Assembly: GCA_022779305.1 (NCBI GenBank)
Contig: JALFSW010000087.1
Span: 27,611-91,610, forward strand
Source: Prevotella sp.
GTDB lineage: Bacteria > Bacteroidota > Bacteroidia > Bacteroidales > Bacteroidaceae
DNA: 64,000 nt
Direction of reading: 5' to 3'
The position numbers were made by a program, and so were the translations under genes. This document shows positions 4,815-57,631 of this stretch, in pieces. The notes under the pieces were generated by a model, which was not told the DNA's origin, did no database searches, and was given only the letters and a program-made list of their open reading frames with translations. The stretch's first letter is position 1, and each line of letters starts with the position of its first letter.

Positions 4815-5013
4815 AAACCCAATTCGGTCATTAGAGACCAAACGGATTACGTCTGATGGGCTATGCAGATTCTTCATCGTTTTCTCGCAGATGTAGCGGG
4901 CTTATTTCAAGCGAAAACGATGAATAAGCTGCCGAAAAGCAGATGTAAGCAGTTGGGAAGTTAATAAATAAAATAAAAAAGACCCCTAACGGTCTAATGA
5001 CCGATTTGGGTTT
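4815..5013 (+). repeat. MITE-like intergenic element, copy 1
   Basis: Begins AAACCCAATTCGGTCATTAGAGACC and ends GGTCTAATGACCGATTTGGGTTT (imperfect TIR). Shares the internal GCAGATGTAGCGGGCT core with the other copies. Confidence 0.88.
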
Positions 5014-6778: not shown

Positions 6779-8203
6779 ATGAAAAGATTTTTTACACTTA
6801 TCACATTGTTTGTCAGCACAGTCGCAATGTGGGGACAAACCTACGACATGACCATTAAACTCAATGATGGACGCATTCTTAAATTCCCTACGACAGATGT
6901 TGCAGAAGTAACGTTCGACATTTCTGGAACGAACGCCAAGAATTGGGCTATGCCTAATCTGAATTTTGGGAAAGAAGCGGAATACGTCATTGGCAGTGCA
7001 GAACCCAACGAAACAACACGCACTGCGGAAGTAACAGTAGCTGCTGAAGCACGCAATCTTACTTATACATACTTCTTCGACGCAGACTACAATTACAAGT
7101 ATGCAAAACTCGTATTCAGTTCAGACGATGAACGCCTTGCATATGAAAGCTACCTCACAGAAGAAGGTTTCACAAAAGAAACTGCCAGCAGTACAACAGA
7201 CTACATCTATCGCAACACCGCTAAAAAACTCGTGGCTTTCATTCATAACACATATGCCGAAGGTGAGGCAACAACAATGGGCGAAAAATACGTAATCATT
7301 GGTGCTGAAGACGAAACCATCGCTTCATGGACACGCACCACATCGCTCAAAGGAACAGCCGCTATCTATGTTCCGTTCTTCGGGAAAGGAGCAAGCAAGG
7401 AAATGATGTGGCACTTTGAAAATCGGTCGGGGAATACACTCGTGGCAAACGATGCTGCCAATGCGCGCGGTGTCTACCGTTTTAACACCACAGATTCACG
7501 TTGGAAAATGACCCGCTATTGGTTCGATGCGAAGACTAAGAATTTCTTGGAAGAAGTTGCAATCTATTGTGATGCCAGCAACCGTCCTACGCCTGCAGAA
7601 GTTGCAGAATATCTTGCCTCACAAGGTTTCGCACAAACGGGCTTGAAAGATGGCAGCAGCGATGTAATCTATTACAATAGTCAGCTCAAGATTGCCGCTT
7701 TTGTAACCATGAGCATACCCGAAAATGCTGGTTCGGATTTCATGCCAAGCATCCAGTTTAGCCACGTGAACCTTGATGCACAACTTCCTCCAGAAAAGGT
7801 TATTCTTCCTTGGCCTGTTACCGAATACAACAAACTGACCATCGCAGAAGCCATCGATGCTTATAAACAAAAACCTTACTTCAAAAACTACAAAGATTTG
7901 GGTGGTGGGTTACATCAAATCGACACCAGTTCGCCCGACTTCCCTGTTATCCTCTTGCTTGAAGAAGGTGGCAAATATCTTGCTGCGTTGGTTGGTTCGC
8001 CTAATGTTTTGACGCTCAGTTCGCCTCATCTGCCTGCAATCTTCACAGAAAACGGCTACGAAAAATACACTGACGATAAATTAGCATTCGACACCTATGT
8101 GAACTGGACAGAAGACAAAGAAATTCAAGTCTGCACATCCGATCTCTTTGATATGGGCATTTTCTTCATCGTCTTTGAACCTAACGAGCGCAAAAAGAAC
8201 TAA
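6779..8203 (+). CDS. Hypothetical secreted protein, 474 aa
   Basis: Signal peptide (MKRFFTLITLFVSTVAMWGQ). Divergent internal modules (YLTEEGF..YRNTAKKLVAF; YLASQGF..YYNSQLKIAAF). Confidence 0.6.
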   Translation: MKRFFTLITLFVSTVAMWGQTYDMTIKLNDGRILKFPTTDVAEVTFDISGTNAKNWAMPNLNFGKEAEYVIGSAEPNETTRTAEVTVAAEARNLTYTYFFDADYNYKYAKLVFSSDDERLAYESYLTEEGFTKETASSTTDYIYRNTAKKLVAFIHNTYAEGEATTMGEKYVIIGAEDETIASWTRTTSLKGTAAIYVPFFGKGASKEMMWHFENRSGNTLVANDAANARGVYRFNTTDSRWKMTRYWFDAKTKNFLEEVAIYCDASNRPTPAEVAEYLASQGFAQTGLKDGSSDVIYYNSQLKIAAFVTMSIPENAGSDFMPSIQFSHVNLDAQLPPEKVILPWPVTEYNKLTIAEAIDAYKQKPYFKNYKDLGGGLHQIDTSSPDFPVILLLEEGGKYLAALVGSPNVLTLSSPHLPAIFTENGYEKYTDDKLAFDTYVNWTEDKEIQVCTSDLFDMGIFFIVFEPNERKKN

Positions 8204-8257: not shown

Positions 8258-8323
8258 AACTAAGCCTCAGTTGCGCTGCAACTGAGGCTTTATTGCATCC
8301 CAAATGAGGCTCACTTAATATTA
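8258..8323. repeat. Three 22-nt units of near-palindromic 15-mer (locus T1)
   Basis: aactaagcctcagttgcgctgc / aactgaggctttattgcatccc / aaatgaggctcacttaatatta. Confidence 0.85.
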
Positions 8324-12140: not shown

Positions 12141-12340
12141 TAAATCCAAATCGGTCATTAGACCGTCAGGATTTCTTTTTATTTTATTTATCAACTTCCC
12201 AATTGCTTGCAACTACTTGTCGGCAGCGTCTTCAGCGTTTTCTCTGGAAGCAGGCCGCTACATCTGCGATAAAGCGCTGAACAATCTGCACAGACAATTA
12301 GGCGCAACCAGCTTGGTCTCTAATGAACGAATTGGGTTAA
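12141..12340 (-). repeat. MITE-like intergenic element, copy 2
   Basis: Inverted copy: taaatccaaatcggtcattagacc ... ctctaatgaacgaattgggtta. Internal ggccgctacatctgcgataaagcgc. Confidence 0.87.
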
Positions 12341-17908: not shown

Positions 17909-19411
<1,503 letters not shown>

Positions 19412-19610: not shown

Positions 19611-19669
19611 AAGTGAGCCTCACTTGTATCCTAACTGAGGTTCACTTGCGTCCTAACCAAGCCTCACTT
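19611..19669. repeat. Three 22-nt units of near-palindromic 15-mer (locus T2)
   Basis: Units start at 19611, 19633 and 19655: aagtgagcctcacttgtatcct / aactgaggttcacttgcgtcct / aaccaagcctcactt. Confidence 0.85.
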
Positions 19670-19842: not shown

Positions 19843-21168
19843 TTATTTCATGTGATAGCAAATGCTACTGCGTACTGGAACCTTGAATGTTCGCTTGACC
19901 ATCGTCTTTTGTGCATCGGTTCTTACTTTAGGTCCAGGTACAAACGGACTGTGAAGCAAGACGTAGCGTATACGGGCTACTTGTTCAGCGGTAAATTTGT
20001 TGCGCTTTGTCCAGTAGTAGTCCATAATATTGTCTGAAACGAAAGTGGCTTTTGTAATGCTGTTCGTTCTGTTGAGCCATTTATTCACATCTTCGAGTGT
20101 AAAGTTAGGATGTTGCCATTGATACTCTTGAAGTTCGCGGAGATATTTACTGCGATTATAGGTTGGCGTATCCTCACAGAAATCGGTATCGGTGTTGCTG
20201 TCCATTCCTTTCTTTGCGTCTTCGCTAAAGACGTGGCGCAAACCGAAATAGTGACCCAACTCATGAGCAATGGTTGAAACAAAATTGGTTGTTTCCAACT
20301 CGTTGTTTGGTGAAGTATAGGCATAAAGACTGTTCACACTGACACAATACGACGCTGTGAGGTCTTTTGGAGAAATATTCTTTGGAAGTTTTTCCAAACC
20401 AGCAAGCGTATCGGGTGCTATGGTGTAAGGAAGTGTTGTTACGCCCGTAACCGATTCATCTGAGAAATTATACAAACAGATGTTCACATAACGGTCTTGA
20501 TCCCAAAGCAAGTCGCGGTAGCGTTTTGGTGCAGCTTCGGCAAAGCCCATGAAACGGTTATAATCGATTTTGTCGATATTCCACTGCACACGATTAACAC
20601 CCGCTTCTTTCATCTTCACACCATTAGGTGTTTCAGTTGCCATCACAAATTCCACATTGATGCCTGCGGCAGCCGCTTTCCAGATCTGGTTTACTTGCGC
20701 CAAGACTTCTTTCAAATACCCCTCGCGAATGTATTGTTTTTCGTTTGAGGCGTCGCGATAAATAACATGAAAGACAACGGGAATGCGATACTTATAATTC
20801 GCATCTGGGTTTTGTTCTATGGCTTGAATAACTTCCACCTGTTTCACTTGCGTTCCATCAACAGTGGCAATCGTGAGCGTATCTTTTCGTTCTCCGCGAT
20901 AGAGATTTTCAGCTATCGTCAACTCAACGATGTTGTCGCCTTCGCCAATCGAAAGATTAGGAGTAACCCATCCTTGTGCAGAAGTAATTGTCCAACGTAC
21001 ATTCGATTTTACTTGCAAAGTCATCATTGCACCCTCTGCAGGCACTTCTAATTTATCTTTGTCCACGCTAAGCGCAGATGTTTTAATATCATCATCGTTG
21101 CAGGCTGCCAGGAAAGTAACGGCAAAACCGATGAGGAAAAACGATAGAATTATATTGATCTTTTTCAT
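19843..21168 (-). CDS. Zinc-dependent metalloproteinase lipoprotein with BACON-like N-terminal domain
   Basis: Lipobox FLAAC; BACON-like VKSNVRWTITSAQGWVTP; zinc motif HELGHYFGLRH. Confidence 0.85.
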   Translation of the reverse strand: MKKINIILSFFLIGFAVTFLAACNDDDIKTSALSVDKDKLEVPAEGAMMTLQVKSNVRWTITSAQGWVTPNLSIGEGDNIVELTIAENLYRGERKDTLTIATVDGTQVKQVEVIQAIEQNPDANYKYRIPVVFHVIYRDASNEKQYIREGYLKEVLAQVNQIWKAAAAGINVEFVMATETPNGVKMKEAGVNRVQWNIDKIDYNRFMGFAEAAPKRYRDLLWDQDRYVNICLYNFSDESVTGVTTLPYTIAPDTLAGLEKLPKNISPKDLTASYCVSVNSLYAYTSPNNELETTNFVSTIAHELGHYFGLRHVFSEDAKKGMDSNTDTDFCEDTPTYNRSKYLRELQEYQWQHPNFTLEDVNKWLNRTNSITKATFVSDNIMDYYWTKRNKFTAEQVARIRYVLLHSPFVPGPKVRTDAQKTMVKRTFKVPVRSSICYHMK

Positions 21169-26157: not shown

Positions 26158-26341
26158 TTCTTTAAATCTTTTCCGCCTTGCCTCCTTGCACAATGACAAG
26201 ACGAATAAGGCGTGGTCAAATGCCTTTGTTAATAATCCCGAAGGATAACCACTTCCTCCAGCCCTCACATCGTGTGAGAGTTTGCTCTACATGCAGTCAG
26301 AGCTTTTCTTGTGTAGCAAACACCTCTTTTAGATGTTTGCC

Positions 26342-34962: not shown

Positions 34963-35163
34963 TAAACCCAATTCGGTCATTAGAGACCAAACTGATTGCA
35001 GCTGATGGTCTGTGCAGGTTGTTTAGCGTTTTATCGCAGATGTAGCGGGCTACTTCAAGAGAAAACGATAAAGAAGATGCCGACAAGCAGATGCAAACGG
35101 TTGGGAAGTGAATAAATAAGACAAAAAGAAAACCCAAGCGGTCTAATGACCGATTTGGGTTAA
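34963..35163 (+). repeat. MITE-like intergenic element, copy 3 in + orientation (full length)
   Basis: taaacccaattcggtcattagagacc ... gcagatgtagcgggctacttcaagagaaaacg ... ggtctaatgaccgatttgggttaa. Confidence 0.9.
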
Positions 35164-35217: not shown

Positions 35218-36381
35218 ATGCAATGGACAGACAGAATCCGTAAGGTAAAAATATTTTTGGTAATTGCCGCTGTGGTCATAGCTGTGGCGTCATTGGTGAT
35301 TTCTCATTATCTCACCAACGACCTTGCTACACAAGAACGAACAAGAATGGAGGTCTGGGCAGAAGCGATGCGCTCACTCAATCAAGCCGACGAAACAACC
35401 GACCTTGCACTGGTTCTGAAGGTCTTGAATGAAAACAACACCATCCCTGTGATTGTTTTAGATAATAACGGACAGGTAACAGAGTTTCGCAACGTTGAAA
35501 TAGCCGAAAAAAACAAAAAAGACAGCTTGGCGTATGTGTCTGAAATGGCCAATCGTTTGAAAGCATCTGGACACAGCTTACGCATAGATTTTGCCGACCA
35601 AACGAACGATTTCATAGATGTTTGCTATGACGAATCGCTCATTTTGAAACGTTTAGCGATTTATCCCTATGTGCAGTTGGGCGTGGTGATGCTATTTGTA
35701 GTGGTTGCTATTTTTGCATTGCTCACCTCCAAACGTGCCGAACAAAACAAAGTGTGGGTGGGGCTTAGCAAGGAAACAGCCCACCAGTTGGGCACTCCCA
35801 TCTCTTCACTCATGGCATGGGCTGCAGTGCTGAAAGAAACCTATCCCGATGACGCCTTATTGCCAGAAATGAGTAAGGACATAGAACGATTACAATTGAT
35901 AGCCGATCGCTTTTCAAAGATTGGATCGTTGCCCGAGCCCGTTCCCTCGAGTTTGAATGATGTGCTTAGCAACGTTGTGGATTATATGAATCGGCGCACC
36001 TCAAAGAAAATCATTATAACCAAAAAATTTCCGTCGAACCCTATTATCATTTCTATGAATGCAGCGCTCTTTGAGTGGGTCATTGAAAATCTTTGTAAGA
36101 ATGCCGTTGATGCGATGGCTGGAGAGGGTGGAAAGATCCATTTACGACTCTATGAAAGCGATGCAAAAGCATTTATAGAAGTGAGCGACACGGGGAAAGG
36201 TATTCGCAAAAAAGATCTCCGAAATGTTTTCCGACCAGGATTTACGACCAAAAGCCGAGGCTGGGGATTGGGGCTTAGTCTTGCCAAGCGCATCGTAGAA
36301 GAATACCACAAAGGGCGTATTTATATAAAAAATTCAGAGGTGGGAAAAGGTACGACTTTTAAAATAGAATTGAAGAAATAA
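35218..36381 (+). CDS. Sensor histidine kinase (orphan)
   Basis: Two TM segments; HQLGTPISSLMAW H-box variant; N box LCKNAVDAMAG; GWGLGLSLAKRIVEEYH. Confidence 0.88.
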   Translation: MQWTDRIRKVKIFLVIAAVVIAVASLVISHYLTNDLATQERTRMEVWAEAMRSLNQADETTDLALVLKVLNENNTIPVIVLDNNGQVTEFRNVEIAEKNKKDSLAYVSEMANRLKASGHSLRIDFADQTNDFIDVCYDESLILKRLAIYPYVQLGVVMLFVVVAIFALLTSKRAEQNKVWVGLSKETAHQLGTPISSLMAWAAVLKETYPDDALLPEMSKDIERLQLIADRFSKIGSLPEPVPSSLNDVLSNVVDYMNRRTSKKIIITKKFPSNPIIISMNAALFEWVIENLCKNAVDAMAGEGGKIHLRLYESDAKAFIEVSDTGKGIRKKDLRNVFRPGFTTKSRGWGLGLSLAKRIVEEYHKGRIYIKNSEVGKGTTFKIELKK

Positions 36382-36449: not shown

Positions 36450-36515
36450 AACTAAGCCTCACTTGCGATGTAACTGAGCCTTACTTACGGTGCAACTGAG
36501 GCTCATTTGCAAAGC
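36450..36515. repeat. Three 22-nt units of near-palindromic 15-mer (locus T3)
   Basis: aactaagcctcacttgcgatgt / aactgagccttacttacggtgc / aactgaggctcatttgcaaagc. Confidence 0.87.
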
Positions 36516-36759: not shown

Positions 36760-37443
36760 ATGAACGATTTTAGAAAATATGCTACGAAACATTTGGGCAT
36801 AAATGGAATGGTGTTTGACGATGTGGTGAGTATGCAAAACCAATATCTCAATCCCTATATTCTTGAGGAACGCCAACTGAACGTAACCCAGATGGATGTT
36901 TTCTCAAGACTGATGATGGATCGCATCATTTTCCTCGGTACACCTATCGACGACTATACTGCCAACACGTTGCAAGCGCAATTGCTTTATCTTGATTCGG
37001 TAGATGCAGGAAAAGACATCTCTATTTATATCAATTCGCCTGGCGGTAGCGTAACAGCAGGTTTGGGCATTTACGACACAATGCAATTCATTTCGAGCGA
37101 CGTGGCAACCATCTGTACAGGTATGGCGGCTTCAATGGCTGCAGTGTTGCTCGTGGCTGGACAAGAAGGTAAACGTTCTGCACTGACCCACAGCCGTGTG
37201 ATGATTCACCAACCATTGGGCGGCGTTCAAGGACAAGCATCCGACATCGAAATCGAAGCAAAGGAAATTCAGAAGTTCAAGAAAGAACTCTATACCATCA
37301 TTAGCAACCACTCGCACCAATCCTATGAAAAGGTATGGAACGATAGCGACCGTAACTATTGGATGACTTCAGAAGAAGCCAAGGCGTATGGTATGATCGA
37401 CCAAGTTTACAAACGAAAGACAGATGGCGATGGCGCAAAATAA
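36760..37443 (+). CDS. clpP: ATP-dependent Clp protease proteolytic subunit
   Basis: [14 protein letters not shown] (Ser active site), [10 protein letters not shown] (His). Confidence 0.97.
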
Positions 37444-41315: not shown

Positions 41316-41518
41316 TTAAACTCAAATCAGTCATTAGACCGCCTATAGTCTTCTTTTTCTTTTATTTTTAACTTCCCAGTGGCTTGCATCTGCTGATCGG
41401 CTGCTTCTTCAGCGTTTTCTCTTGAAGTAGCCCGCTACATCTGCGAAAAAACGCTAAACAATCTGCATAGATAATCAGACGCAACCCCTTTGGCTCTAAT
41501 GACCGAATTGGGTTAAAT
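41316..41518 (-). repeat. MITE-like intergenic element, inverted copy between convergent recQ and mfd
   Basis: ttaaactcaaatcagtcattagacc ... agcgttttctcttgaagtagcccgctacatctgcgaaaaaacgct ... ctctaatgaccgaattgggttaa. Confidence 0.9.
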
Positions 41519-46138: not shown

Positions 46139-47806
46139 TTAAGAGAGCCCTTCTATCACACCATTCACCACATGAATGCGTTCTGCCTGAGGACTCTTAG
46201 GCAAGCCCGGCATTCGCATAATGCTACCAGCGATGGCTACTATCATCTCAGCACCTGCATTGATGACAAAATCGCGTATTGTGATGTCAAAATTGGTAGG
46301 CATTCCGTAGGCGGTAGCGTCTTCCGAGAAAGAGTATTGTGTTTTGGCAATGCAAACAGGGAAATGTTCCAAGCCGAGTTCTTTGATGCGAGCCAATTGT
46401 TTCTTGGCAGCTGGTTTGAGGATAATTCCGTTTGCACCATAAACGCTTTTTGCAACCTTTTCCACCTTCACATCAATGCCGTCTGTTTCATCATAAGCAA
46501 AAGTCAATGGGCGAGATGGGGTCTTTTCAATCGTGTCCACTACCAAGTGTGCCAACGCTTCAGCTCCCGCTCCACCATCGCCAAAGGCGGTGTTGAGCGC
46601 AAACCCAATGCCACGGTCTTCACAATGCTGCTGAACGAGGGCAAGCTCTTCGTCGGTGTCACTAGCAAAACGATTGAGACACACCACCACAGTCTGACCA
46701 AAAGCCTCAAGATTGGCTATGTGCTTGTCCATGTTTGCCAATCCAGCCTTCACACCTTCTATGTTGGGCTTACTGATTTCTTTTACATCCACACCGCCGT
46801 GCATCTTCAATGCTTGTGCCGTGGCAACAAGGACGGTGAGCGAAGGTGATATACCCGCTTTCCGGCATTTTATATCGAGGAATTTTTCAGCCCCCAAATC
46901 TGCACCGAATCCAGCTTCCGTGATGCAATAATCGCTGTGCATCATTGCCATTTTCGTAGCAAGGATACTGTTGCATCCGTGTGCAATATTGGCAAACGGA
47001 CCGCCATGGATAAACGCTGGTGTGTTCTCAATGGTTTGAACGAGGTTTGGATTGATGGCTTCGTGGAGCAATGCCACGATAGAACCTGTCACATTGAGTT
47101 CTTTCATATAGAGCGGCTTACCTTCCAACGTGATACCGAGAATGATATTGTCAATTCGACGGTGTAAATCTTCTTCATCTTTAGCAAGGCAAAGAATAGC
47201 CATAATCTCCGAAGCAGGTGTTATGTCGAAACCGCCTTCGGTGAGCAATCCGTCTGTGCGTGCACCCAAGCCTGTGATGACATTGCGCAGGTTGCGATCG
47301 TTCACATCCAACACGCGTCGCCACCATATTTCTTTCATGCCGAAGCCTTCGTCTTGGTGCTGATAGATGTAGTTATCGAGCAAGGCAGCAATCATATTGT
47401 TTGCCGAGGTGATAGCATGGAAGTCGCCCGTGAAATGAAGATTGATTTTCTCCATAGGCAACACTTGTGCATAGCCACCGCCCGCTGCACCACCTTTCAT
47501 ACCGAAACAAGGACCCAATGAAGGCTCTCTCAACGCAGGGATAGCATTCTTCCCTATACGATTCATACCGAGTGCCAAGCCCACACTAACTGTGGTCTTG
47601 CCGATGCCTGTTTTGGTTGGTGTGATAGCGGTTACGAGTATTAACTTGGATTGCTTAACTTTTTCTTCATCAATGAGCGTATAAGGAACTTTTGCGATGT
47701 ATTTTCCGTAAGGCTCCAATGCTTCTACAGGCACATTCGCCTTGTTTGCTATACTTTCTATTGGTTCTAATTTTGCTTCGTGAGCAATTTCAAAATCTGT
47801 CTTCAT
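46139..47806 (-). CDS. fhs: Formate--tetrahydrofolate ligase
   Basis: [26 protein letters not shown] and [23 protein letters not shown] signatures. Confidence 0.98.
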
Positions 47807-48195: not shown

Positions 48196-48261
48196 AACTG
48201 AGGCTCATTTGCATTGTAACTGAGGCTCACTTGCATTGCAAATGAGCCTCAGTTAGAACAC
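48196..48261. repeat. Three 22-nt units of near-palindromic 15-mer (locus T4)
   Basis: aactgaggctcatttgcattgt / aactgaggctcacttgcattgc / aaatgagcctcagttagaacac. Starts 15 nt from the preceding repeat element. Confidence 0.9.
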
Positions 48262-48292: not shown

Positions 48293-49114
48293 TCAATCGT
48301 TTAATGCTTGTTCTTTCGCACGTCTTCTTTCGTCGATAGTTTGAAAATCTTTCTTTTGAAGAACAAAGTCTGTTCCGAGGTATTTCTCTTTCACAATCTT
48401 GTTGGCAGCCAATTCATCGGGAGTTCCTTTGAAGAGGATTTGACCTTCAAAAAGCAAGTAGGCACGGTCGGTGATGTTGAGCGTTTCGTGTACGTTGTGG
48501 TCAGTAATGAGAATACCGATATTGCGAAACTTCAATTGCCAAACAATGTGCTGAATGTCTTCAACGGCAATGGGGTCTACACCAGCAAAGGGTTCATCAA
48601 GCATAATAAACTTCGGATCGATTGCCAAACAGCGTGCTATCTCACACCTGCGTCGCTCGCCACCCGAAAGTCGGTCGCCAAGGTTCTTCCGCACTTTCTC
48701 AAGGCGAAACTCTCGAATGAGACTTTCCATTTTGTCGATGCGCTGCTGTTTTGTGAGGTGTGTCATTTCGAGTACGCTCATAATGTTGTCTTCCACGCTC
48801 ATCTTCCGAAAGACGCTTGCTTCTTGTGGCAAATAGCCAATACCTGCTTTCGCACGTTTATAAACCGGATAGTTGGTGATTTCCTGTTCATCGATGTAAA
48901 CGTGTCCTTCATTGGGCACAACAAGTCCGGTGGTCATATAGAAAGATGTGGTTTTCCCCGCACCGTTAGGTCCTAAGAGTCCCACAATTTCCCCTTGTTT
49001 CACGTGTATGCTCACGCCGTTGGCGACTGTGCGTTTGCCGTAGCGTTTCACAAGTCCTTCAGTTCGCAAAATGCTTAATTGCTCGTTGTTATTGGTTTGC
49101 TGTTCGTTTGCCAT
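48293..49114 (-). CDS. lptB: LPS export ABC transporter ATP-binding protein
   Basis: [53 protein letters not shown]. Probable start MANEQQTNN at 49114. Confidence 0.93.
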
Positions 49115-49246
49115 ATTGTTTTGTTTGTCCTTTGCTTTGATGCGTTTTGAGCTTGCTTTGTTTGCAAAATTACTAAAATAAACCATAATAACCTTGATAT
49201 ATCCTAAAAGGATTGAAGATGTTGCAGTTTTTTAGTGGATTTTAGT

Positions 49247-52658: not shown

Positions 52659-53561
52659 TTAAGGATGAAGTTTAACCACTGAGAAACGCTTCACAAATCC
52701 GACAACGAAGAGGTTGCTCCACGTGTGGAAGCGTAAATGATTGACCTTTGCTTGCTGATAATCGCCGAGAAACCCCAACCGAAGTGCGGTGGTTGAAAAA
52801 CCAATGTCTATCGTTAGTTGATGGCGCAAGGATGGAGCTGACCATGGGGTGGTTGCCACTAAGTTTCGGTCATAATCGCCCTCCACAAAGATTTCATAAT
52901 AACTTTGTCCGTAATTGGGACTGTAGCGCATACCAAGGAAGGGCAATTGAAGTCCATAGCGCAGTTGAAGTGGTCTGTTTCCGATCCGAAAACGATAGCT
53001 TAAATCAACGTTTGCAGTCAAGTTTAGGGCTGCATAGACTTGCGCTGGGTTATTGGAATTGCGTGCATTGTAGAGAAATCCAATGTTGGCATCACCTCCA
53101 CCACCCACTTTCAGCAACAGACGTCCTTTGCTCAATTGCCAATTCCCCAATGTTCGCAACACATTATATTGAAAATTATAAAACCCACCTAGTTCACTGT
53201 TGTTTTGATTGCGGTTCTTTGTGAAACTAATATTGGCTTGATGCACCATTTCTCTGGCATACTTGCTGCCATTTTCTTTTACGATTTGCGACACATAGCG
53301 CAATTCTTGTCCCATGTAGGTTTCTGGAGAAAGATAGGTGTCGAGCTGATTGACATGACCGATACCCAGCAGACGCACTGTTGTTGTTTGTTTCTGAAGC
53401 TGCAAACTATCTTGCGCTGCCAAAGGCAAAACGCATAGCAACAAAGCCAACAAACAACCTTGGTGCTTATTTGTCTTCTGTGTGCACCACATTCGAGATG
53501 CAGCACCCACGATATTCCAACCTATTTGCTTTATTGCCATTGCTCCATTATTCACTTTCAA
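52659..53561 (-). CDS. DUF3316-like outer membrane-type protein
   Basis: LLGIGHVNQLDTYLSPETYMGQELRYVSQ and beta-strand-rich C-terminus. Family from recollection. Confidence 0.6.
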   Translation of the reverse strand: MKVNNGAMAIKQIGWNIVGAASRMWCTQKTNKHQGCLLALLLCVLPLAAQDSLQLQKQTTTVRLLGIGHVNQLDTYLSPETYMGQELRYVSQIVKENGSKYAREMVHQANISFTKNRNQNNSELGGFYNFQYNVLRTLGNWQLSKGRLLLKVGGGGDANIGFLYNARNSNNPAQVYAALNLTANVDLSYRFRIGNRPLQLRYGLQLPFLGMRYSPNYGQSYYEIFVEGDYDRNLVATTPWSAPSLRHQLTIDIGFSTTALRLGFLGDYQQAKVNHLRFHTWSNLFVVGFVKRFSVVKLHP

Positions 53562-56376
53562 ACAAACTCAATTGTCCCATCATCTCGTCTTTCACCTGTT
53601 GTTGACTCTTTCCAGCATCAGGATCAAGATTGTCTTCATCGTTCGCATCAGGGTTCTTTGCTGTATCCTCATTATCTGCCTGCTCCTCCGCTACCTCTGG
53701 GAAACGCACGGGTTCGAGTTCTTCTATGTTTTCGATAGAGAATGTTGAAAGGCGTTTGCCCTTTGCCTTGAAGCTCTTTACACCCACGAATTGCTCTGCG
53801 TCCACTTCTTCTGTGCCACGTGTTGCGTCTACACCGCCATAGATAAGCAATATGCGGGGATAAACGACATCCGTAAGCATCACCAATTGAGACTCGGCAT
53901 TGTCGCCCAAAAGTGTTTGGTGTCGCTTTGTGTTCTCCATTTGGAAACGCTTTAGATAAGGATAACCTTGGTTATCAGCATCATAGAGAACCGCCGTCCA
54001 CACCTTTTCGGCATCAAACTTTTCTATGCGCAGGATGTTTTCCTCATAGTGGTTGGATGGGTCAAAATTGGTGGTATAAAACTCGCCATTCTTCAACACC
54101 ACAAGAATACTATCATTGTCATGAAACTCACCCAACAATCTGCCTTGTTCTTCGTAGTTGATGCGGTTCACATCTGGGTCAAACCACACCTTCCGTCCGC
54201 CCAACGTAGAACGCCCGTGGCTCTTGAGCGATATGCGGTGGACTGGATCTTTCGTCAAAAGATTACCACGCGAAAGGCGTCCTTTAATGAGTATGTCCGA
54301 AAAGTTGCGCTCAATGAAGATGTTTTGGCGTTTCTTACCTGGGTTTACTTCCAAAGTAACTTTTATCAGTTCGGCTTCTCCGTTCGGATTGGCGGTGAAA
54401 TAGACAATGCGTGAGCCTGGTGTGCCCATCGTCACGTCATATTCCTTGTCGCGTGTTACGGTTGTAACGTTGAAACGCTTGATGAAATAGAATCCATCTT
54501 TGCCATCTCGATACACCACATTATATATCGTGCGCTTGTCGCTCTTTTTAAACACCTGCAAATGTAAGACACCCTTACCCACAAACACTTTGTCGGCAAT
54601 GCGAATTACTTTGTATTTTCCATCACGATAGAAGATGATCACATCGTCCAGATCGGAACAATTTTGTACAAATTCGGCTTTTTTCAATCCTGTTCCGATA
54701 AATCCTCCTTGTCGGTCGATGTAGAGTTTTTCGTTTGCATCCACAACCTTCGATGCAATGATCGTGTCGAAACTCTTGATTTCTGTTTTACGAGGATAGT
54801 TTTTGCCATATTTTTCTTGCAAATAGGCAAACCATTCTATCGTTACACGAACTATTTCGCGCAGGTCTTTTTCTATTTCGGCTATTTCGGCTTTGATCTT
54901 TTGGAGCAATTCATCGGCTTTATCTTTGTTGAATTTCAAGATGCGTTGCATCTTTATTTCAAGTAAACGCAGAATGTCATCGCGCTTCACTTCACGGATG
55001 AATGTTTTCTTGAAAGGTTCCAATTTTGTGTCGATGAACGCCACCACATCCTCAATGTCCTTCGCAGTTTCAAACTTCTTTTCCTTGTAGATGCGTTCTT
55101 CGATGAAGATGCGTTCCAGTGTGTTGTAGAAAAACTGTTCTTCCAACTCGCCTTTTCTTATTTCCAATTCTTGGCGCAGAAGTTCTTTCGTGTGATCGAC
55201 AGAGTAGCGCAACACATCAGAAATGGAAAGGAATTGTGGTTTGTCGTCTGCAATGACACAACAATTGGGCGACAGATTGATTTCACAATCGGTGAAAGCA
55301 TAGAGCGCATCCATTGTCTTGTCACTCGACGTACCCGGCGTTAGGTGTAGCAAGATTTCCACTTCCGATGCCGTCATGTCTTCCACACGGCGTATCTTTA
55401 GCTTGCCTTTTTCCACTGCCTTGGTGATCGACTCTTGCAGCGAACTGGCTGTCTTTGAAAAAGGAATTTCACGAATGACGAGTGTCTTGTTGTCGAGCTT
55501 TTCAATCTTGGCACGCACCTTGAGCGATCCGCCTCGCAAGCCATCATTGTATTTTGAAACATCAATGCTACCACCCGTTGGGAAGTCGGGATAGAGCTGA
55601 AAAGTTTCACCTTTGAGATATTGAATGGCTGCCGAACAAATTTCATTGATGTTATGGGGAAGAATTTTCGACGACAGACCTACGGCTATCCCCTCGCCTC
55701 CCTGAGCAATGATGAGCGGGAATTTAACGGGCAGAGTGATGGGTTCTTTGTTGCGCCCATCATAGGACAGTTGCCACTCGGTGGTCTTGGGATTGAACAC
55801 CGTTTCTAAGGCAAATTTCGACAAGCGTGACTCGATGTAACGAGGTGCTGCGGCACGGTCTCCCGTGAGGATATTTCCCCAGTTTCCTTGCGTATCGATG
55901 AGCAAATCTTTCTGTCCCAATTGCACCAAAGCATCGCCAATCGAAGCATCGCCATGAGGGTGAAACTGCATCGTATGACCTACGATGTTTGCTACTTTGT
56001 TATAGCGTCCGTCGTCCATACGTTTCATGGAATGGAGTATACGCCTCTGAACGGGCTTCAGACCATCTTTGATATGGGGAACAGCACGTTCCAAAATAAC
56101 ATAGCTGGCATAATCCAAAAACCAATGCTTGTACATGCCCGACAGATGTTTCACTGCCGAAGCATCAAACCGATCGGCTGGCTTATAGTCAGAATGTCCC
56201 TCTGTTTCGGTTGTTTCATCAAATGTATGCAACGCATCAGCGGAATTATCGTTTCGTGCTGCAGTGTTATGCTCGTCTTGGTGAGTTTCTTTTTCTTCGC
56301 CCATAAGTAAGTTGTTTACCATTGTTTTTCGTGTTCCCGACTGCGCTTTCAGGCGTTTTTGTCTCGCTTTGTACAT
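53548..56376 (-). CDS. parC: DNA topoisomerase IV/gyrase subunit A
   Basis: SYVILERAVPHIKDGLKPVQRRILHSM, QLGQKDLLIDTQGNWGNILTGDRAAAPRYIESRLSKFA. Confidence 0.9.
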   Translation of the reverse strand: MYKARQKRLKAQSGTRKTMVNNLLMGEEKETHQDEHNTAARNDNSADALHTFDETTETEGHSDYKPADRFDASAVKHLSGMYKHWFLDYASYVILERAVPHIKDGLKPVQRRILHSMKRMDDGRYNKVANIVGHTMQFHPHGDASIGDALVQLGQKDLLIDTQGNWGNILTGDRAAAPRYIESRLSKFALETVFNPKTTEWQLSYDGRNKEPITLPVKFPLIIAQGGEGIAVGLSSKILPHNINEICSAAIQYLKGETFQLYPDFPTGGSIDVSKYNDGLRGGSLKVRAKIEKLDNKTLVIREIPFSKTASSLQESITKAVEKGKLKIRRVEDMTASEVEILLHLTPGTSSDKTMDALYAFTDCEINLSPNCCVIADDKPQFLSISDVLRYSVDHTKELLRQELEIRKGELEEQFFYNTLERIFIEERIYKEKKFETAKDIEDVVAFIDTKLEPFKKTFIREVKRDDILRLLEIKMQRILKFNKDKADELLQKIKAEIAEIEKDLREIVRVTIEWFAYLQEKYGKNYPRKTEIKSFDTIIASKVVDANEKLYIDRQGGFIGTGLKKAEFVQNCSDLDDVIIFYRDGKYKVIRIADKVFVGKGVLHLQVFKKSDKRTIYNVVYRDGKDGFYFIKRFNVTTVTRDKEYDVTMGTPGSRIVYFTANPNGEAELIKVTLEVNPGKKRQNIFIERNFSDILIKGRLSRGNLLTKDPVHRISLKSHGRSTLGGRKVWFDPDVNRINYEEQGRLLGEFHDNDSILVVLKNGEFYTTNFDPSNHYEENILRIEKFDAEKVWTAVLYDADNQGYPYLKRFQMENTKRHQTLLGDNAESQLVMLTDVVYPRILLIYGGVDATRGTEEVDAEQFVGVKSFKAKGKRLSTFSIENIEELEPVRFPEVAEEQADNEDTAKNPDANDEDNLDPDAGKSQQQVKDEMMGQLSLFESE

Positions 56377-56419: not shown

Positions 56420-56485
56420 AAATGAGCCTCACTTGTGTCCTAACTGAGGCTCATTTGTGCTTCAACTGAGGCTCACTTACAAGAC
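56420..56485. repeat. Three 22-nt units of near-palindromic 15-mer (locus T5)
   Basis: aaatgagcctcacttgtgtcct / aactgaggctcatttgtgcttc / aactgaggctcacttacaagac. Confidence 0.9.
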
Positions 56486-56812: not shown

Positions 56813-57631
56813 ATGATAGAAATTAAAGATTTACGGTTTAATTATCCTGGAAACAAATACAACGTTTTCGATGGATTTAATCTCACATTGAAACCCAACC
56901 ATGTCTATGGGTTATTGGGAAAAAACGGGACAGGGAAAAGCACATTGCTTTATCTCATCGCTGGACTCTTACGCCCTAAAGCAGGACAAGTAACCATTGA
57001 TGGCAAAGCAACCAAAGAGCGAACGCCCGATATGTTGCGCGAAATCTACATTGTTCCAGAGGAATACAATTTGCCCAATCTCACGATGGCACAATACATC
57101 AAAATTCATAAGGATTTCTATCCGCTTTTCAATGAAAACACATTACACCGCTGTTTGGAAGAATTTGAAATGCCCACGGAAATCAATTTCAAATACCTTT
57201 CAATGGGACAGAAAAAGAAGATCTACATGAGTTTTGCCATTGCTTCTTCTTGTCGCTTCTTGCTCATGGACGAACCCACGAACGGACTCGATATTCCTTC
57301 AAAGGCAATGTTTCGCAAAGTGGTGGCAGGCAATCTTCCGGAAGGGTCTACTTTGCTCATCTCTACGCATCAGGTGCACGACATTGAGCAACTCCTCGAC
57401 CACGTTATTATCATCAATCCATCGACACTCTTGCTCAATAGTTCAATGGAAGAGATAACAAAAAAATATGAATTTACCTATCGCACAGCCAACGAAATGG
57501 ACGAAAGTGTTGTCTATGCCGAACCTTCATTGCAAGGTAACGCTGTAATGGCATACAGACGAGAAGGCAGTGCAGAAACACCCGTGAACTTAGAATTGCT
57601 CTTCAACGCAGCCATCTTAGGCAAACTTTAA
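56813..57631 (+). CDS. ABC transporter ATP-binding protein
   Basis: GLLGKNGTGKSTLLYLIAGLL, LSMGQKKKIYMSFAIASSCRFLLMDEPTNGLDI. Confidence 0.92.
   Translation: MIEIKDLRFNYPGNKYNVFDGFNLTLKPNHVYGLLGKNGTGKSTLLYLIAGLLRPKAGQVTIDGKATKERTPDMLREIYIVPEEYNLPNLTMAQYIKIHKDFYPLFNENTLHRCLEEFEMPTEINFKYLSMGQKKKIYMSFAIASSCRFLLMDEPTNGLDIPSKAMFRKVVAGNLPEGSTLLISTHQVHDIEQLLDHVIIINPSTLLLNSSMEEITKKYEFTYRTANEMDESVVYAEPSLQGNAVMAYRREGSAETPVNLELLFNAAILGKL

Follow-up and report, generated by a model that had tools for sequence, protein, structure and literature searches.

Dispersed, intergenic and imperfectly palindromic repeats that occur in clusters, favour the 3′ side of genes and differ between species are known from enterobacteria and pseudomonads as REP sequences and BIMEs. 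BIMEs have been reported to be bound by gyrase and IHF, Pol I being a further criterion of the REP/BIME class, and a role in structuring the chromosome has been proposed for those of E. coli. Palindromic sites that recur over the chromosome and are recognised by a protein dimer are represented by the matS/MatP and parS/ParB systems. In a Bacteroidales genome, that of Porphyromonas gingivalis, the BrickBuilt MITE consists of a 23-nt unit, AGAYCATARTATCCTCTCRTRTG, which can be present at least 18 times, enclosed by a leader and a tail with IS5-like inverted ends, and it amounts to 19 copies (PMC4596501). Within Prevotella, Naito et al. (2016, PMC4755523) described PINSR, a 188-bp repeat specific to the P. 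intermedia/nigrescens group. In their description, PINSR is one sequence found in four species only, intergenic and non-coding, present in 177-184 copies per genome in P. intermedia, lacking terminal inverted repeats and missing from most conjugative and mobilisable transposons, while about three quarters of PINSR-containing regions are common to two strains.

The arrays discussed here were first seen in a window of 64,000 nucleotides, the whole stretch of DNA analysed, from a Prevotella genome of 2.23 Mb in 90 contigs, 90% complete (the host genome, G000). All five window sites for which 15-nt near-palindromic units at an exact spacing of 22 nt had been predicted do hold them, and in the array at 48196 unit 1 is the exact reverse complement of unit 3 (Table 1). 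The consensus of the original prediction, AA[G/C/A]TGAG[G/C]CTCA[C/T/G]TT, describes these units incompletely, as some of them deviate from it (TAAG, CTTA and similar).

Table 1. Phased dyad arrays and copies of a separate MITE-like element in the window.
Feature	Position	Surroundings
Three-unit 22-nt phased dyad array	8258..8316	Convergent gap, 54 bp 3′ of gene 6779-8203
Three-unit array	19611..19669	Upstream side of guaB (17909-19393, -); 3′ of metzincin lipoprotein gene (19843-21168, -)
Three-unit array	36450..36508	Flanked by histidine kinase gene (35218-36381, +) and clpP (36760-37443, +)
Three-unit array	48196..48254	Gap from lptB (48293-49186, -) to fhs (46139-47806, -); 38 bp beyond lptB stop
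Three-unit array	56420..56478	Divergent gap, topoisomerase IV subunit A (53548-56376, -) / ABC ATPase gene (56813-57631, +)
~193-bp MITE-like element	4818-5010	
~193-bp MITE-like element	12145-12336	
~193-bp MITE-like element	34967-35159	
~193-bp MITE-like element	41321-41512	

A position weight matrix (PWM) scan over 1.63 Mb of the host genome confirmed the arrays as a real feature, far above chance. It returned 87 multi-unit arrays, extrapolating to about 119 in the whole genome, of which 57 have three units, 20 have four and 10 have two, together with 20 single matches. Since the reversed-sequence control gave 5 singles and no arrays, about 5 of the 20 single matches are due to chance. Likewise, the TGAGSCTCA core occurs 165 times in the host genome and its reversed pattern once. 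Three units are the mode, and the predicted number of exactly three, correct for all five arrays of the window, does not extend to the genome, where it ranges from 2 to 4 without broader variation. The period, on the other hand, is invariant as predicted: moderate matches lying 12-80 nt apart are spaced by 22 (144 pairs), 44 (75) or 66 nt (13), and by no other distance.

Each unit consists of AANTGAGSCTCANTT and a 7-base spacer with the weak consensus GCNNNGC/GYNNNCY, and both outer sides of the arrays carry a degenerate half unit, TAYANTTGC in inward reading, occasionally extended to CATACTATACTTGC. As a result, dyads recur at 11-bp intervals and alternate between two kinds. Core conservation is 91-99% per position, except for positions 4 (G/A) and 10 (C/T) with 73-75%, values somewhat inflated by a scan that demands one good unit and misses badly decayed arrays, while unit positions 2, 7 and 12 vary freely. 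Paired positions showed no compensatory covariation in any register, be it inside the 15-mer, about the spacer or over the whole array, and the free positions are anti-complementary (2-12, z=-2.5; spacer ±3, z=-3.4; spacer ±6, z=-2.9), a pattern that fits half-sites being recognised independently in double-stranded DNA, or perfect cruciforms being avoided.

In regard to genes, called as simple ORFs that cover 86% of the DNA, neighbours could be mapped for 77 arrays, every one of which is intergenic, none lying within a gene. The gaps they occupy (41 tandem, 20 convergent and 16 divergent) are distributed near background, and in 29 of 40 co-directional gaps the array is closer to the 3′ end of the upstream gene (p=0.006).

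Along the chromosome, the arrays are spaced more regularly than in random placements. Within-contig intervals in the host genome (n=48) have a mean of 11.2 kb and a coefficient of variation (CV) of 0.47, compared with 0.98±0.12 under random placement in intergenic DNA (observed value reached in 0 of 1000 runs) and 0.79-0.83 if arrays are placed singly in intergenic gaps (0 of 2000 runs); the latter null predicts 14-16 intervals shorter than 5 kb, of which 2 were observed. Over-dispersion was replicated on P. nigrescens chromosome II at 0-327 kb (CV 0.56 vs 0.96 for the null), and in a small part of this chromosome, 455-568 kb, the test fell short of significance. Its segment 326-461 kb is array-free, part of it being a conjugative element. 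Long array-free contigs of the host genome are C6, C62, C36 and a phage contig, C33, on which an open reading frame of 4,897 aa (L058:2399-17089) adjoins a P22-like portal gene, and none of the viral contigs searched carries the array motif. The three array-free chromosomal contigs have a slightly higher GC content (0.445-0.456). In G156, G170, G373, G335 and G099, the counterparts of NqrA from C6 and of an S9 peptidase from C62 lie on the second replicon, and C62 also holds an ortholog of a ParA from P. nigrescens chromosome II, while the array-bearing contigs C54, C69 and C8 correspond to the main replicon of relatives. A restriction of arrays to the main chromosome is nevertheless no general rule, because they abound on P. 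nigrescens chromosome II, though it may apply to the host genome.

The exact motif of the host genome, with 129 copies there, occurs at most once in each of about 400 congeners. In one congener, G366, the reversed control pattern occurs 23 times, likewise as triplets at 22-nt spacing, and a scan was therefore undertaken that accepted tandem near-palindromes whatever their sequence or period. In samples of 80 kb, G366, G108 and G099 showed a period of almost exclusively 22; G156 showed period 22 plus some AT-rich noise, and G146 gave few matches. P. nigrescens chromosome II had 39 matches at period 22 against 0-3 at the other periods from 15 to 33, and P. oral taxon 299 had 11 against 0-1. In sampled DNA of other Bacteroidales, Bacteroides finegoldii yielded one match at period 22, and Phocaeicola massiliensis and Parabacteroides distasonis none. 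Period-22 dyad geometry is common to Prevotella, while the core sequence differs by lineage: TTTACTCSGAGTAAA in G366, AAAA-N7-TTTTGCANNGC in G108, ATTCTTCGCAAGAAT in G099, AAAAGCTTAGCTTTT in G146 and G343, and several different cores in G156. Relatives thus show the same geometry with other sequences, and not the neutral decay of units that would have spoken against their maintenance.

Several further structures were noticed in these genomes. In G374 (L124:1457-1620), units of the host type (AAGTGAGGCTCACTT) are followed in the same 22-nt register by units of AAAA...TTTT type, a stretch resembling a hybrid of two array subfamilies. P. nigrescens chromosome II also contains a different 22-period repeat, GATATCTAAAACgaacgtgact (L225:8503 and L235:23762), to which a GACAGATATCTGAGACGA repeat adjoining a histidine kinase gene in G409 looks related. 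A tandem-motif scan of GTDB contigs gave single hairpins in three genomes and a Woeseiaceae contig with an 11-nt-period repeat, both taken as unrelated.

Some gaps hold arrays in more than one species. The region upstream of fhs carries an array in the host genome, G099, G362, G017 and G108, with differing cores; in G099 it occupies the same lptB-fhs gap as window array 48196, and the nearest relatives of the host show about 76% identity in fhs. The clpP-side gap, past the 3′ side of the histidine kinase gene, holds a period-22 array of other sequence in about 10 of 27 congeners. Overall, arrays were found in orthologous gaps of other species in 6/42 cases vs 18/266 expected, a slight excess only (p=0.12), and in a second comparison in 3/22 vs 7/137 (p=0.14). 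Strict conservation of array positions between species was thus not significant, indicating that individual positions turn over.

Among the described systems, PINSR comes closest. The arrays of the host genome are likewise intergenic and non-coding, and their 87 copies in 1.63 Mb, or about 119 by extrapolation, compare with about 180 of PINSR; they differ in having another core and, in place of conserved 50-bp flanks, units and weak half-sites only. Common flanks surround about 8 of the 47 arrays on P. nigrescens chromosome II. The best of these copies measure about 50 + 4x22 + 50 = 188 bp, so that PINSR probably belongs to the same array class, as a variant with four units and flanks. The 22-bp periodicity, the other cores and the regular spacing seen here are not mentioned in the passages of the PINSR report that were consulted. 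A literature search with the core sequence returned unrelated primers only. REP sequences and BIMEs resemble the Prevotella arrays as dispersed intergenic imperfect palindromes with a bias to gene 3′ ends, whereas the arrays are strictly 22-bp phased, limited to 2-4 units and markedly over-dispersed. Moreover, the Y1/RAYT transposase family (PF01797) is present in two congeners, G146 and G366, and absent from the host genome, G108, G099 and G156; without a cognate Y1 gene in the host, membership in the REP/RAYT (REPIN) class fails. BrickBuilt is also an intergenic tandem repeat of short units, but its 23-nt unit is non-palindromic by inspection, and it was rejected as the array family on the exact 22-nt period and palindromic unit of the Prevotella arrays. 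Finally, matS and parS are single sites conserved across species, in contrast to phased multi-site arrays with species-specific cores.

The array layout fits a putative dsDNA-binding protein bound cooperatively on two-turn spacing, as the original prediction had proposed. We infer from it protein binding, a dimeric state and chromosome organisation, and we would give an even chance to an explanation in which the arrays are BIME-like docking platforms on double-stranded DNA with a chromosome-structuring role. The 2-4 imperfect dyads, AANTGAGSCTCANTT in the host genome, would lie on one helix face exactly two turns (22 bp) apart and be occupied side by side by the putative dimeric protein. About 120 such platforms would stand between genes, somewhat nearer to 3′ ends and held roughly 6-17 kb apart, and in their likeliest role, the structuring of the chromosome, they could for instance serve every ~10 kb as anchors, as barriers or as sites of topology control. 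Shifts of the core between lineages could mean that the protein and its many sites change together, or that one subfamily replaces another. Absence of arrays from phage contig C33 and from the 326-461 kb segment of P. nigrescens chromosome II argues for such platforms, while the turnover of positions between species and the long array-free contigs of the host genome argue against them. A wider version seems rather unlikely to us, namely a chromosome-organisation system of the whole genus, in which a fast-evolving dimeric protein would use three- to four-dyad platforms ~10 kb apart, its specificity and more than 100 arrays co-changing while the 22-bp geometry stays fixed.

Alternatively, though we are doubtful of it, the arrays could be non-autonomous mobile repeats, either as solo recognition ends or as elements of the MITE/PINSR kind, with a transposase copying them in trans. 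Subfamilies would then bloom in each species, target-site immunity or selection would space the copies, and no host function would be involved; indeed, a selfish-repeat origin with spacing exclusion could likewise produce the regular spacing. Such an origin agrees with the species-specific cores and the presence of several cores within one genome, with the single host array (contig C16, L043:147-205) whose core is typical of G099, with the weak inverted sequences CATACTATACTTGC...GCAAGTATAGTATG that flank some of the arrays, with the ~50-bp flanks common to a minority of P. nigrescens arrays, and with the non-significant conservation of positions. The history of the copies tells against it. 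In a pairwise comparison of the 57 three-unit host arrays, similarity of spacers and free positions was 12.8 in register and 12.7 out of register, and nearest-neighbour identity matched a simulation drawing each column independently. No copy genealogy beyond independent columns was found among these arrays, and thus no recent common descent as expected of MITEs, nor any common sequence in their distal flanks; of MITE-like terminal inverted repeats, a weak CATACTATACTTGC half-site is present at part of the array ends. PINSR itself, as described by Naito et al., lacks terminal inverted repeats and has most of its regions conserved between strains.

A recent transposon burst is unlikely, because the free positions look independently randomised while core and phasing are kept without indels. 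Since a burst would leave genealogical similarity and neutral old repeats would lose core and phasing, the evidence points to old sites under constraint, to which de novo birth of arrays with variable spacers may be an alternative. The earlier impression that the arrays are maintained is therefore borne out by the invariant period, the kept core, the intergenic position of all testable arrays and the regular spacing, while the hairpin-based mobile repeat suggested at the same time is disfavoured by the lack of covariation, of copy genealogy and of Y1/RAYT in the host and three of five congeners. A separate, very abundant MITE-like element (Table 1) measures ~193 bp and is bounded by the 18-bp terminal inverted repeats CCCAAATCGGTCATTAGA...TCTAATGACCGATTTGGG. 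Its matched ends number about 300 over the 1.63 Mb examined of the host genome, and single ends of it lie beside arrays 19611 and 48196. The element was set aside as parent of the arrays because it is only occasionally near them and is present on array-free contigs too.

It is improbable that the arrays are signals for DNA uptake or recombination, similar to DUS/USS or Chi, providing an evenly spaced, species-specific self-mark for the competence or repair machinery. Haemophilus uptake sequences are evenly spaced, and the array motif is also species-specific and missing from foreign DNA; however, about 120 loci are far below the number of known uptake or Chi motifs, and strictly intergenic, phased multi-unit arrays are atypical for either kind. 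A search of the window against Rfam matched no family on the arrays, its only match being the engA RNA motif (RF02972) at 26201-26303 (-) with 62.7 bits. Tandem 3′ UTR hairpins acting as terminators or mRNA stabilisers, in line with the near-palindromic units, the mild 3′-end preference and the lack of avoidance of convergent gaps, are very improbable and were rejected because the paired positions do not covary, with 16 of 77 arrays in divergent gaps and the anti-complementary free positions also standing against them.

To our knowledge, almost nothing is known about chromosome-structuring sites in Bacteroidota. Our comparison suggests that PINSR, published as a repeat of one species group, is one case of a genus-wide architecture, which ordinary homology searches miss because geometry alone is conserved. 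If the arrays are selfish, their regular spacing demands an explanation, for example long-range insertion immunity. If they are platforms for a protein, they would open a ready route to studying how the nucleoid is organised in Bacteroidota and would also provide a natural experiment, with the specificity of one protein and more than 100 of its target sites changing together.
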